The notes beneath the pieces are model-generated. The model was given only the letters and a program-made list of their open reading frames with translations. It did not search any database and was not told the origin of the DNA. The position numbers and the translations under genes are program-made. Positions 1 to 26,338 of a DNA stretch of 27,193 bases are shown here, in pieces. Numbering within the stretch: position 1 is the stretch's first letter; each line of letters begins with the position of its first letter. The stretch comes from a virus, in the IMG/VR virus record IMGVR_UViG_3300000265_000380, positions 1 through 27,193 of that record; one strand, 5' to 3'.

Positions 1-384
1 TACTATTGGGATAAAAGTAATAGCATTTGTGGTACAGAATGGGTTGATAATACAGGTGTTACCACTAAAGTAAAAGCAAGTGGTGAAATAATTAACTATG
101 AGACAGGTGATATAACTCAAACGGTAACAACAACTACAAATGGTGTTTCATCTTCGGTAACAAATACAGGTAGATATTCAACTTTTGATAATACAGCAAA
201 TTTTTCAGTTCACTCTGGCTCTGACGGTTATAAAAGAATGGATAGAATATTCCAAAATCATAGAACATATCTTACTACCAACTCTGTTGAAAATTTTGAT
301 ATTATGGTAATACAAGAAACAGAAACTCAGGCTTTAGTAGCTGGATCTAATGGTGCTAAGATCACAATAATACAGTCTAAATAG
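1..384 (+). CDS. C-terminal part of an unknown Thr/Ser/Asn-rich protein
   Basis: Open from the first base to a TAG at 382-384, giving the last 127 residues of a protein whose start lies outside the window. It is rich in Thr, Ser, Asn and Val, with short alternating polar/hydrophobic stretches (TVTTTTNGVSSSVTNTG) that suggest beta structure, as in phage surface or fibre proteins. No motif identifies it. The cyclase gene starts 4 bases after the stop, so the two are probably co-transcribed. A structural or adhesin-like role is inferred from composition only. Confidence 0.7.
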   Translation, partial: YYWDKSNSICGTEWVDNTGVTTKVKASGEIINYETGDITQTVTTTTNGVSSSVTNTGRYSTFDNTANFSVHSGSDGYKRMDRIFQNHRTYLTTNSVENFDIMVIQETETQALVAGSNGAKITIIQSK

Positions 385-388
385 TTAT

Positions 389-2023
389 ATGACTAAATTT
401 ACTTCCGTATGGGCGGTAATAGTAAGTGTGGTAATATTATTAGGATTAAAATTATATAATCCAGCACCACTAGAAACCCTCCAACTAAAGACCTTTGATT
501 TGTATCAAAAATTAGGTGATAACTATACATCTAAAAGTTTGGTAATGTTAGACATATCAGACGAGGCATTAGTTAAAGAAGGACAATGGCCATGGAAAAG
601 AGACAAATTAGGTCGTGCCATTATCAACGCATATAAAAATGGTGCAGCCGTAGTATTTTTGAACGTAGTATTTGTACACAAAGACAGGCTAGGTGGTGAT
701 GAAATGTTTTTGAAAATGATCTCAAAGTATTCAGTTATTCTAACTGAAACAGACACAGCAAAGAACTTAAAGAGTATAGAAAGGAAAGCGTTGGCAATCG
801 CTAACGTGGAAGTGGACGTAAGTGTTGACTCTGTTATACGAAAAATACCTCTGGATAATTCCGTGCCTGGAAAGATTTTGCAGATAATTAAATTTCCATT
901 ACCTAAGCAAGATGAAATATGGATTGATTTTAGACATAGTGTACCTAGAGTGAACTATGCAGATAAAGATTGGTCATCTATGAAAGGTAAAATAGTATTC
1001 ATAGGCGCCACATTTACAGGTTCTACTTTTGTACAAACACCTAATGGTTTAATGAACACACATGAAATCATGGCAGTATCAACAGAGACTTTACTATCAG
1101 GTAAGTTTATTAGTAGACCTGATTGGTTGCCTAAAGCGGAGTGGGCAGTACTACTAATTTCTTTACTTTCTTTTTTATTGATTATGCCTAGAGTTGGCTT
1201 ACTATGGTCTGCTAGTATGTTGTTTATATTTTATGGTACAATAGGTGCAGCTTCAACATATTTGTGGCAAAGTAAATTAATATTATCAGACTATTCATCT
1301 ATTGCAATAATAGTAAGTATAATATGGACACATTTAATATACAATAACTTTGCTAGAGAGAATAGATTAAAACTACAAATTAAAAAACAATTTGAACATT
1401 ACCTAGCACCAGCAATGGTTAAGAAATTACAAAACAATCCAGAATTATTAAAACTAGGTGGTGATACAAGAGACATGACTTTTTTATTCTGTGACATAAG
1501 AGGTTTTACTCCCATTTCAGAAAAGTATCAAAGTAATCCACAAGGTCTTACAAAAGTAATTAATAATTTTCTAACACCTATGACAGACATAATAATGAAG
1601 AACGGTGGTACTATTGATAAGTATATGGGAGATTGTATCATGGCGTTTTGGAATGCTCCTTTAAATCAACATAATCATAGATCACTTGCAGTTGATTCAG
1701 CGCTACAAATGATTACTAAATTAAAAGAGTTAAACAATAAGCAACATTTTGGGGAAGACAATCATATAAATATAGGTATAGGAATAAACTCTGGTCCTGC
1801 TGTTGTAGGTAACATGGGTTCTAAACAAAGGTTTGATTATTCTGTTCTTGGTGACGCTGTAAATCTAGCAAGTAGATTAGAAGGCATAAGCAAAAATTAT
1901 GAAGCAACTTTAATAGTAGGTCACGATACTTACAGCATGATAAGAAATAGGTACGATTGGAAGAAATTGGATATGGTTCAAGTTAAGGGCAAATCCAATA
2001 AGGTATCAATTTACACAATCTAG
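389..2023 (+). CDS. Membrane-bound class III adenylate cyclase with CHASE2 sensor domain
   Basis: A 544-residue protein predicted to make cAMP from ATP at the inner membrane. Order: N-terminal membrane segment (about 5-22), an extracytoplasmic CHASE2-type domain (about 30-245, with the DGQWPW-like EGQWPWKR and GKIVFIGAT), three membrane segments (about 250-318), then a cytoplasmic cyclase domain (about 360-540). The catalytic set looks complete: metal Asp369 (FCDIRGFT) and Asp415 (YMGDCIMAFW), adenine-selecting Lys411 and Asp483, transition-state Asn492 and Arg496 (DAVNLASRLEG). Lys/Asp at the purine positions favours ATP over GTP. Length and order match bacterial CHASE2 cyclases. A membrane cyclase is unexpected in a T4-like phage; it may be host-derived. 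CHASE2 ligands are unknown. The family call is secure; activity is inferred. Confidence 0.93.
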   Translation: MTKFTSVWAVIVSVVILLGLKLYNPAPLETLQLKTFDLYQKLGDNYTSKSLVMLDISDEALVKEGQWPWKRDKLGRAIINAYKNGAAVVFLNVVFVHKDRLGGDEMFLKMISKYSVILTETDTAKNLKSIERKALAIANVEVDVSVDSVIRKIPLDNSVPGKILQIIKFPLPKQDEIWIDFRHSVPRVNYADKDWSSMKGKIVFIGATFTGSTFVQTPNGLMNTHEIMAVSTETLLSGKFISRPDWLPKAEWAVLLISLLSFLLIMPRVGLLWSASMLFIFYGTIGAASTYLWQSKLILSDYSSIAIIVSIIWTHLIYNNFARENRLKLQIKKQFEHYLAPAMVKKLQNNPELLKLGGDTRDMTFLFCDIRGFTPISEKYQSNPQGLTKVINNFLTPMTDIIMKNGGTIDKYMGDCIMAFWNAPLNQHNHRSLAVDSALQMITKLKELNNKQHFGEDNHINIGIGINSGPAVVGNMGSKQRFDYSVLGDAVNLASRLEGISKNYEATLIVGHDTYSMIRNRYDWKKLDMVQVKGKSNKVSIYTI

Positions 2024-2031
2024 GAGGCTGT

Positions 2032-2154
2032 CTGGTAAAAAGGATAACGTTTACTTTCATAAAGTTTTTTTTATGTTGGTGTTTATTATGGACATGTACA
2101 CAAAATATAAAGTCAAGTAAAACAGAAACTATTATAAATATAGTTGATGAGTGA
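2032..2154 (+). CDS. Possible tiny lipoprotein-like ORF (non-ATG start)
   Basis: This frame encodes about 40 residues: a basic start, a hydrophobic Phe/Leu/Trp stretch with a lipobox-like LLWTC, then a short polar tail ending TGA at 2152-2154. The stop overlaps the next start in ATGAGTGA, as in coupled phage genes. AGGAGG lies at 2022-2027, but there is no ATG, GTG or TTG in frame; the only candidate is CTG at 2032, 4 bases from the Shine-Dalgarno, which is close. It may be a small outer-membrane lipoprotein paired with the membrane-anchored coiled-coil protein downstream, or simply a non-coding gap. Confidence 0.25.
   Translation: MVKRITFTFIKFFLCWCLLWTCTQNIKSSKTETIINIVDE
2133..2140 (+). promoter_or_regulatory. 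T4-type late promoter motif TATAAATA
   Basis: Exact match to the T4 late promoter box, 6 bases before the ATG at 2147. With T4 spacing, transcription would start at about 2146. The octamer also turns up inside genes in this AT-rich DNA, so chance is a real alternative. Confidence 0.3.
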
Positions 2155-2584
2155 TAACACAGAAATACAGGTACGATTAGCAGAATTAACCAAAGATGTT
2201 AAGCAGGTTAATAATATTCAAAATAGACTTGATACTGCTATTGACAAACTAACAGATGTTTCTACACATATTAAATCTATGTTGGCCGTACACGAGGAGA
2301 AGATTGAACATCAGGAAAAGATAGATGATGTAATATTCTCTAAACTAAAGATAAGAGCCAGTGAGACGGTAAGTATAGAAAAAGAACTTTCCGATAAAAT
2401 AGAAGAATCTGAAAAACATATAAGGGAAGAGTTAGTTGAACTAAAAGGCGAATTCCGTGGTAGAATTAGTCTATTAGAAAAGTACAAGTGGATTATCATA
2501 GGTGCTTTCATAGCTGTTGAATTTATTACGGTTTTAATGGTATCTAAAAAAGGTATGTTACCTTACTTCTCATTTTTCAATTAA
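2147..2584 (+). CDS. Coiled-coil protein with C-terminal membrane anchor
   Basis: 145 residues. Residues 1-110 are charged and show heptad-like spacing typical of a long coiled coil (runs such as IQNRLDTAIDKLTDV and KELSDKIEESEKHIREEL). One membrane segment follows at about 115-134 and then a short tail. The layout recalls XhlA-like phage proteins, which accompany holins, but XhlA is shorter and no specific motif confirms it. ATG at 2147 is preferred to the TTG one codon upstream. It follows the possible tiny lipoprotein ORF and precedes a promoter, so it probably closes the cyclase operon. The function is not known; tethering or lysis accessory roles are guesses. Confidence 0.8.
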   Translation: MSDNTEIQVRLAELTKDVKQVNNIQNRLDTAIDKLTDVSTHIKSMLAVHEEKIEHQEKIDDVIFSKLKIRASETVSIEKELSDKIEESEKHIREELVELKGEFRGRISLLEKYKWIIIGAFIAVEFITVLMVSKKGMLPYFSFFN

Positions 2585-22455: not shown

Positions 22456-23376
22456 ATGTTCCTAATTATACTAACATTTTTAAGTGCGATATCTATATCT
22501 GTAATAGCCGCTGGTTATTCTATCATAGGTCTTGCAACACTATTTGCCGGTGCAGTAGTACCAATTATTGCTATGGGTACGGCATTAGAAGTAGGTAAGT
22601 TAGTAGCAGCCTCATGGTTGTACCATAATTGGCAAAGTGATGTACCTAGATTGTTAAAAACGTATTTGTTTACAGCAATCATTGTATTAGTTTTTATTAC
22701 CTCTATGGGTATCTTTGGTTTCTTATCAAAGGCACACCTTGATCAAGTTAAACCTACATCTGGTAATAATATAAAACTAGAACAAATTACCGACCAGATT
22801 TCAAGACAACAAACTATTATAGACAGATCACAAAATACGTTAACATTATTAGACAAGGCATTAGAGGTCTACATTGATAAAGAATATGTGACTAGAGGTT
22901 TAAAAGAAAGAGCAAAACAAGAAGAAGAAAGAACTGCTTTAAACAATGCAATTGAAGACGCAAGTAATAAGATCGCAGAGTTATCAGATAAGAAAGCAAC
23001 ACTATCATTAGCACAAGATAAGATAGAGGCAGAGGTTGGTCCTATTAAGTATGTTGCAGAGTTAATATATGGTGAAAGTGCAAAAGATAATATTGACAAG
23101 GCAGTTAGAATTGTTATACTGATATTAATATTTGTATTTGACCCATTAGCAGTATTGTTATTGATAGCAGCCAACATATCATTGAGACAATGGAGATTAA
23201 AGAAACAATTAACAAAGTCTAATAAACAACAAAATTTACAACAAAAATTAAATAGATTAATGAAAAGAAATAAGAACTTGAAAAAATATAAAAATGTGGT
23301 AAAAGACCTTGGCGATAATCCAGATGAGATTAAGTTGAAGTTAAGCCAGATAGTGAATTTAGATGATAAGAATTAG
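22456..23376 (+). CDS. Membrane protein with cytoplasm-sized coiled coil
   Basis: 306 residues. Membrane segments at about 2-24, 26-46, 68-90 and 215-240, with a long coiled coil between the third and fourth (about 105-195, runs like QTIIDRSQNTLTLLDKALEV) and a basic C-terminal tail (KKQLTKSNKQQNLQQKLNRL). Similar multi-pass coiled-coil proteins are widespread in marine T4-like phages. Immediately after a wall hydrolase and overlapping a tiny lipoprotein, it could belong to a lysis or envelope module. Confidence 0.82.
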   Translation: MFLIILTFLSAISISVIAAGYSIIGLATLFAGAVVPIIAMGTALEVGKLVAASWLYHNWQSDVPRLLKTYLFTAIIVLVFITSMGIFGFLSKAHLDQVKPTSGNNIKLEQITDQISRQQTIIDRSQNTLTLLDKALEVYIDKEYVTRGLKERAKQEEERTALNNAIEDASNKIAELSDKKATLSLAQDKIEAEVGPIKYVAELIYGESAKDNIDKAVRIVILILIFVFDPLAVLLLIAANISLRQWRLKKQLTKSNKQQNLQQKLNRLMKRNKNLKKYKNVVKDLGDNPDEIKLKLSQIVNLDDKN

Positions 23377-25601: not shown

Positions 25602-25925
25602 GTGGCGTACAGTGTTAATGATAAGTGTATCATGTGTAAACACACTGATTGCGTTGAGGTCTGTCCTGTAGATTGTTTCTATGAAGGAGAGAACATGTTA
25701 GTGATCAATCCAGATGAATGTATTGATTGTGGTGTATGTGAGCCAGAGTGTCCTGAAGGAGCAATACTATCAGACATGGAAGAAGAAGGCAAGAAGTGGA
25801 TTGAGTTTAATGATAAGTGGTCAAGACAATGGCCAGTTATAACAGATAAAAAAGATAGTATGGATCCAGATAACAAACATAGAGACGAACCAGATAGATT
25901 AAATAAATATTTTAAAAACAAATGA
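25602..25925 (+). CDS. fdxA: FdxA-type ferredoxin (two iron-sulfur clusters)
   Basis: 107 residues from GTG 25602. [18 protein letters not shown] and [16 protein letters not shown] carry nine Cys (9, 12, 17, 21, 25, 40, 43, 46, 50), as in the 7Fe ferredoxins of the Azotobacter FdxA family; the C-terminal [10 protein letters not shown] also matches that family. It carries low-potential electrons in the cytoplasm. Length is normal and it looks intact. It overlaps sufE by 4 bases. The partner is not known; class Ia reductase activation or cluster assembly are candidates. Probably taken from a host. Confidence 0.93.
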
Positions 25926-26338
25926 TACTAGATAAAATCAAAGAGACAGGTAGCGATTTACATATGTTAGAAGGACATGACCGACTTCACTATCTAGTAG
26001 ACAAAGCAAAAGAAGTTAAACCATTACCAGAATGGTTGAAAACAGAAACAAACAGAATACATGGTTGTGCTAGTAAACTATGGATAACTGGTATGAAAGA
26101 CCCTAAAGATGGTTGTATGATATACCATGCTGATGGTGAGTCTCATATAACAAGAGGTACTGCTAAATTGGTAACTGATATAGTTAATGGTGAGAAGTGT
26201 GAGGAAGTTGCTAATCTAACTGTAGATAGTTTTACACCATTAGGCATAAAAGAACTACTTACTATGCAGAGACAAAATGGATTAGGTGAGTTAATTAATA
26301 GAATTATAGGAATTGCAAATGCCAATATACACATTTAG
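25922..26338 (+). CDS. sufE: SufE-like sulfur acceptor for iron-sulfur assembly
   Basis: 138 residues, normal SufE length. The sulfur-accepting Cys49 lies in [10 protein letters not shown], matching E. coli SufE Cys51 in [47 protein letters not shown] and the C-terminal helix follow the family. SufE takes sulfur from SufS cysteine desulfurase and passes it to the SufBCD scaffold; phage SufE would have to use the host machinery. Coupled to ferredoxin by 4 bases, so both proteins are made together. Confidence 0.93.

Follow-up and report, generated by a model that had tools for sequence, protein, structure and literature searches.

The window analysed here, a stretch of 27,193 nucleotides that makes up positions 1 to 27,193 of IMG/VR record IMGVR_UViG_3300000265_000380, carries near its start a gene for a membrane-bound adenylate cyclase. 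The locus raises the question of what a T4-like marine phage might gain from an enzyme that makes cAMP in its host and is joined to a predicted envelope sensor. Comparison with related phage and bacterial loci, referred to below by L numbers, suggests a role connected with a surface fibre.

The cyclase gene and its phage

The cyclase gene occupies positions 389-2023 on the plus strand, begins with an ATG codon 4 bases past the upstream stop codon and encodes a protein of 544 amino acids. The Pfam families CHASE2 (E 8.8e-27) and Guanylate_cyc (E 3.4e-24) both match the protein well above their cut-offs. The CHASE2 match (residues 17-264, positions 437-1180) covers the predicted periplasmic sensor and the start of the second transmembrane helix, and the class III cyclase domain (residues 361-542, positions 1469-2014) is of the PF00211 family, with two metal-binding Asp residues and the Asn/Arg transition-state pair. 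An AlphaFold2 model built from a 46-sequence phage alignment (mean pLDDT 87.6) places the first transmembrane helix at residues 7-23 (positions 407-457), followed by an alpha/beta sensor and by helices at residues 246-268, 271-296 and 302-335 (positions 1124-1393), the last of which merges with the signalling helix; the periplasmic location of CHASE2 is predicted from these four helices. The cyclase fold was matched by Foldseek to CyaB (3r5g, TMt 0.86, rmsd 1.7) and CyaC (1wc1). The sensor-membrane-cyclase architecture proposed in the sequence-only reading is thus upheld by both the Pfam matches and the modelled helix layout.

The catalytic residues named in that reading are all present on the plus strand, at positions 1493-1495 (D369), 1619-1621 (K411), 1631-1633 (D415), 1835-1837 (D483), 1862-1864 (N492) and 1874-1876 (R496). 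In an alignment of 83 phage homologues D369, K411, D415 and R496 occur in 83/83, and D483 and N492 in 82/83. K411 and D483 align with identical residues in the Pseudomonas aeruginosa adenylyl cyclase CyaB, and the guanylyl cyclase Cya2 has Glu at the K411 position; the window enzyme has the adenine-selecting Lys/Asp pair and is predicted to use ATP rather than GTP. Whole-gene dN/dS is 0.13-0.21 against relatives that are 75-83 % identical, which indicates purifying selection. The gene was confirmed as an intact CHASE2, four-transmembrane, class III adenylate cyclase that is, judged by its sequence, catalytically competent. Unlike the window enzyme, the Melnitz cyclase (L003:11998-14049) has lost two of these residues, with Ser at both the adenine-binding Asp (D483) and the transition-state Asn (N492) positions, and carries a C-terminal extension; activity may therefore be dispensable in some phages.

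The assignment to a T4-like marine phage was borne out by T4-type replication and nucleotide genes that are closest to those of Pelagibacter myophages. The best matches of the window NrdA are from the Pelagibacter phages Mosig (82 %) and HTVC008M (78 %), the primase is likewise nearest to these two, and gp23 is present in the relatives L017, L053, L055 and L074. Chimerism of the contig, which would have undermined the sequence-only reading, is excluded: the order FecR C-terminus, cyclase, DUF7201, primase, NrdA repeats on the independent contigs L004, L006 and L008, the DUF7201-primase-nrdA-nrdB backbone is also present in Mosig, and homologues of the cyclase occur in complete genomes of the isolates HTVC008M and Melnitz. 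The contig is a 27-kb fragment, and this would favour an assembly error or bacterial contamination, but with the arrangement shared by many independent contigs and isolate genomes the chance of either is negligible.

The gene after the cyclase (positions 2144-2584, plus strand) is a backbone gene that adjoins the cassette described below, and encodes a DUF7201 coiled-coil protein with a C-terminal transmembrane segment. It is kept in Mosig, which has no cassette; a holin-like gene lies near it there, and in the curli phages it adjoins the cassette. Elsewhere in the window, positions 22456-23376 encode a membrane protein with a long coiled coil and a weak, below cut-off match to Tetraspanin, and positions 25602-26338 encode a ferredoxin-like protein (Fer4, DUF3470), which is followed by a putatively SufE-like ORF.

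Fibre-export cassettes linked to the cyclase

The open reading frame directly upstream of the cyclase (positions 1-384, plus strand) is the C-terminal 127 residues of a FecR-family envelope protein, cut at its 5' side by the contig end and terminating in the curlin-type strand AKITIIQSK. It clusters with the FecR proteins of about 719 residues in L005, L006, L007 and others and belongs to their C-terminal family, so that the window has a FecR-family gene directly 5' of its cyclase, one of the marks of membership in the pelagiphage type VIII secretion (T8SS) module. In L005 and L006, whose cyclases are 81 % and 75 % identical to that of the window, the order is csgF, csgG, curlin, FecR and cyclase, followed by the phage backbone with primase; the region of csgF, csgG and curlin lies beyond the contig end in the window. 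The best reading is that the window cyclase is the final part of a phage cassette that equips infected cells with a surface fibre. The sequence-only reading overlooked this context because the contig begins within the module. The 3' end of the cassette is marked by TATAAATA, a T4 late-promoter-like pattern match at positions 2133-2140 (plus strand), 5' of the DUF7201 gene.

Genes for FecR and an adenylate cyclase have been described as part of the curli (type VIII secretion) module of pelagiphages, in both myo- and podophages, and an alphaproteobacterial origin was inferred (PMC9599517, 2022); two other papers treat the curli genes without mention of the cyclase (PMC7029224, PMC9004378). The cyclase is also annotated in HTVC008M (AGE60353.1) and in the Melnitz methylophages (QZI95054.1), and the gene is consequently not new to marine myophages, as the sequence-only reading had allowed it might be. 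Among the isolates of the phage collection, CsgG and a full-length cyclase co-occur in HTVC008M and four Melnitz records, and Mosig has no homologue of either. The presence of the cyclase in the curli module is thus already known, and what is added here is the type I cassette, the curlin-type FecR ends, the bacterial FecR pairing and the half swaps set out below. Curli made by SAR11 phages have no agreed purpose.

The compared phage loci are mostly metagenomic fragments, and all 35 that reach 4.5 kb or more beyond the cyclase on its upstream side contain part of a cassette (33 with curli genes, 34 with FecR). Cyclase and csgFG are neighbours in divergent orientation in 12 loci, so the link between cyclase and curli outlasts rearrangement. 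On the short contig L016 (L016:1277-4381), csgF and csgG are flanked by two CHASE2 cyclase genes.

In L039 and its relatives no curli genes lie beside the cyclase; the order is instead a FecR-coiled-coil-cadherin adhesin, a TolC-like OEP, a 250-residue ABC protein, HlyD and then the cyclase. The FecR adhesins are 1299 residues long in L039 and L170 and 1209 in L177, with cadherin in L039, and RTX repeats are present in an adhesin fragment of L040. The 250-residue protein matches the membrane portion of type I ABC exporters from bacteria and has no ATPase domain, and no ABC ATPase scored over the cut-off in the seven contigs searched, mostly fragments. A scan with the type I HlyD protein recovered 19 phage loci, and the cyclase lay just downstream in 19/19. 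Cassettes of this kind with FecR-cadherin/RTX adhesins were seen in L170, L039, L177 and L166-L183; gp23 was not found in L170, a 148-kb contig, and the T4-like status of that phage is not supported. A search of the open literature for RTX adhesins secreted by a phage type I system returned nothing relevant, and the type I version, with an ABC permease lacking an ATPase, would be a new phage cassette.

Taken together, the gene orders indicate that in phages a FecR-domain protein and a fibre exporter remain genetically linked to the cyclase; the exporter is either CsgF/CsgG/curlin or a type I adhesin exporter. This persistence bears on the suggestion that phage-made cAMP serves a general takeover of the host by driving its Crp-type regulators, the curli link reflecting nothing but shared module ancestry. 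Such a role would agree with the near invariance of the catalytic residues in the 83 phage homologues and with the absence of a cNMP-binding protein from all 12 phage records searched (0/12), by which any receiver must be the host's. It is nevertheless unlikely, since the cyclase accompanies FecR and fibre export even where the exporter is replaced or the gene inverted, since Mosig, whose NrdA and primase best match those of the window, infects a SAR11 host with no cyclase of its own, and since SAR11 is described as having very little transcriptional control (PMC11102524). The related proposal that cAMP triggers a nucleotide-based defence, or interferes with cyclic-nucleotide immunity, has in its favour just that the enzyme makes a nucleotide. 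Among the families searched, neither the window nor the cassette yielded a defence gene, and the linkage is to fibre export; either role is thus very improbable.

The FecR protein and the exchange of cyclase halves

Proteins of the FecR cluster with a true C-terminus end in the pattern [IVL]x[IVLT]xQ in 48/52 cases, against 4/1259 other ORFs; three of the four exceptions are near-misses and one is a type I adhesin. The Escherichia coli CsgB protein has the same kind of C-terminus (AIRVTQR) as the curli-linked FecR proteins; in CsgB it is the final repeat that is connected with anchoring at the surface. In an AlphaFold2 model of the L005 homologue the region that matches positions 1-384 of the window forms a beta-strand ladder (pLDDT mostly 65-83), and the N-terminal half is poorly modelled. 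The phage FecR proteins have signal-peptide-like N-termini in the curli version or adhesin bodies in the type I version. On the sequence evidence the FecR domain is part of the very protein that is exported or associated with the fibre; in the curli cassettes this protein ends in a curlin strand, and in the type I cassettes it is a cadherin/RTX adhesin.

A different use of the same gene linkage was put forward in PMC9599517, in which FecR is an iron-responsive regulator of the curli operon, and cAMP would switch on curli as it does via CsgD in enterics. CsgD is absent, as that paper itself notes, and the N-termini, adhesin bodies and curlin-type ends are unlike the layout of an iron regulator. 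The T4-type late promoter motif TATAAATA directly precedes csgF in 16 of 39 loci and other ORFs in 37 of 797 cases, which points to late transcription by the phage and not to control by cAMP; it was found before 0/74 cyclase genes. Regulation of the curli operon by cAMP is therefore quite doubtful. The cyclase genes in the 12 divergent loci cannot use the csgF promoter, and the timing of their expression may vary among phages.

The two halves of the cyclase have, on pairwise comparison, separate histories and are exchanged between phages, with the change point in the signalling helix. The window protein and that of L030 are 29 % identical over residues 1-320 and 90 % over residues 325-544, with identity rising from about 30 % to more than 90 % at a swap point near residues 315-330 (positions 1331-1378, plus strand). 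Sensor and catalytic halves are 27 % and 92 % identical between L027 and L064, 85 % and 53 % between L011 and L027, and 24 % and 85 % between the cultured HTVC008M and L027. With sensors only 24-29 % identical where catalytic halves are 85-92 % identical, the stimulus need not be uniform across phages.

These exchanges also bear on whether the cyclase domain might serve as no more than a scaffold or be a relic, only the CHASE2 and transmembrane part being of use. The loss of two catalytic residues in Melnitz would fit, as would the finding that in several pairs CHASE2 is the better conserved of the two domains (75 % against 57 % for the cyclase domain, to L017), a finding that also agrees with the fibre-sensing role proposed below. 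That explanation is improbable in view of the full catalytic set in 82 of the 83 homologues, a cyclase-domain dN/dS of 0.10-0.30 and the swapping of catalytic halves as whole units.

Bacterial relatives, proposed role and known systems

The nearest cellular relatives of the phage cyclase are almost all from Alphaproteobacteria, and a class-wide scan found CHASE2 in 137/289 genomes. In 40 alphaproteobacterial CHASE2-cyclase loci from separate genomes, sampled from the better-scoring ones and searched with a FecR profile iterated on the same sequences, a FecR ORF lay within 4 kb in 24/40 and none lay farther away within the 298 kb of flank. In a Pfam annotation of the genes next to the 80 nearest cellular relatives, FecR was present in 16 of 60 upstream neighbours and in 4 of 60 on the downstream side, HlyD in 8 and 4, respectively, and csgG was found beside 0/120 bacterial CHASE2 cyclases. 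Capture of the cyclase from Alphaproteobacteria, as proposed in the sequence-only reading, fits these data as regards the nearest relatives; in the unrooted trees, which cannot show nesting without an outgroup, the phage set forms one side of a branch.

The data suggest that the cyclase has a fibre-bound FecR protein as its partner and that it monitors the state either of the fibre or of the export machine. It is somewhat more probable than an even chance that FecR and CHASE2 act as one signalling unit, which makes cAMP to report on a surface fibre encoded by the phage; the model draws on the intact enzyme, the linkage, the fibre-type FecR ends and the bacterial pairing, all read from sequence. 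The unit would have been acquired from Alphaproteobacteria, in which pairs of FecR and a CHASE2 cyclase are common and often stand beside type I adhesin exporters. The FecR domain would lie in the periplasm, on or beside the fibre, and be read by CHASE2, a contact that we infer from gene linkage alone. CHASE2 may restrain the cyclase, an idea taken from CyaD1 of Sinorhizobium meliloti (PMC5498481). Information on the fibre (whether exported, anchored or engaged) would reach the cyclase through the transmembrane helices and the signalling helix, and the cyclase would set the cAMP level in the host cytoplasm. The cAMP would act on cAMP-binding proteins of the host, as the phages searched encode none.

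A broader formulation is that FecR and the CHASE2 cyclase are a portable envelope sensor, its FecR half built into the fibre, which phages combine with either curli or type I export, two unrelated systems, so that a phage-made fibre signals by cAMP into the cell; we put this forward tentatively, at a little below an even chance. Were FecR the means by which the cyclase reads the fibre, phage fibres would be sensors as well as glue or pores. The bacterial comparison suggests a general role, in which FecR-CHASE2 cyclase pairs monitor exported adhesins across Alphaproteobacteria.

The closest known systems are those of HTVC008M and Melnitz, T4-like marine phages that likewise have a CHASE2 cyclase 3' of csgF, csgG, curlin and FecR (the csg genes being seen, for the window, in its relatives L005 and L006). 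The cyclases are 611 and 683 residues long in HTVC008M and Melnitz, against 544 in the window, and sensor identity is 26-27 %. The FecR proteins of the nearest relatives of the window differ from theirs in a length of about 719 residues and a central part that is acidic and rich in aromatic residues, and a second, separate curlin was not seen.

Alphaproteobacterial type I adhesin loci like L107 share with the phage cassettes a CHASE2 cyclase, an RTX protein and the HlyD and ABC genes of the exporter. In L107 (L107:6270-10793), from a marine alphaproteobacterial single-cell genome, a cNMP-binding domain is fused to the HlyD that immediately precedes the cyclase, a second cNMP-binding protein immediately follows the cyclase, and, in contrast to the phages, the ABC ATPase is complete; the fusion and the adjoining protein suggest that in that bacterium cAMP acts on the exporter directly. 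A cluster in Campylobacterota also pairs FecR with a CHASE2 cyclase, and contains a FecR-domain outer-membrane protein, a phosphodiesterase and a TPR protein; it differs from the phage cassettes in the phosphodiesterase and in that a fibre export system is not reported there (PMC9239204). In S. meliloti the CHASE2 cyclases CyaD1, CyaD2 and CyaK, acting with NsrA and Clr, read an envelope event, as is proposed for the window, and the FecR protein SMc02177 is among the Clr targets. Unlike the phage genes, those of S. meliloti are chromosomal and not reported with curli, their receiver, Clr, is known, and the signal is a plant protein (PMC13001267, PMC5498481).
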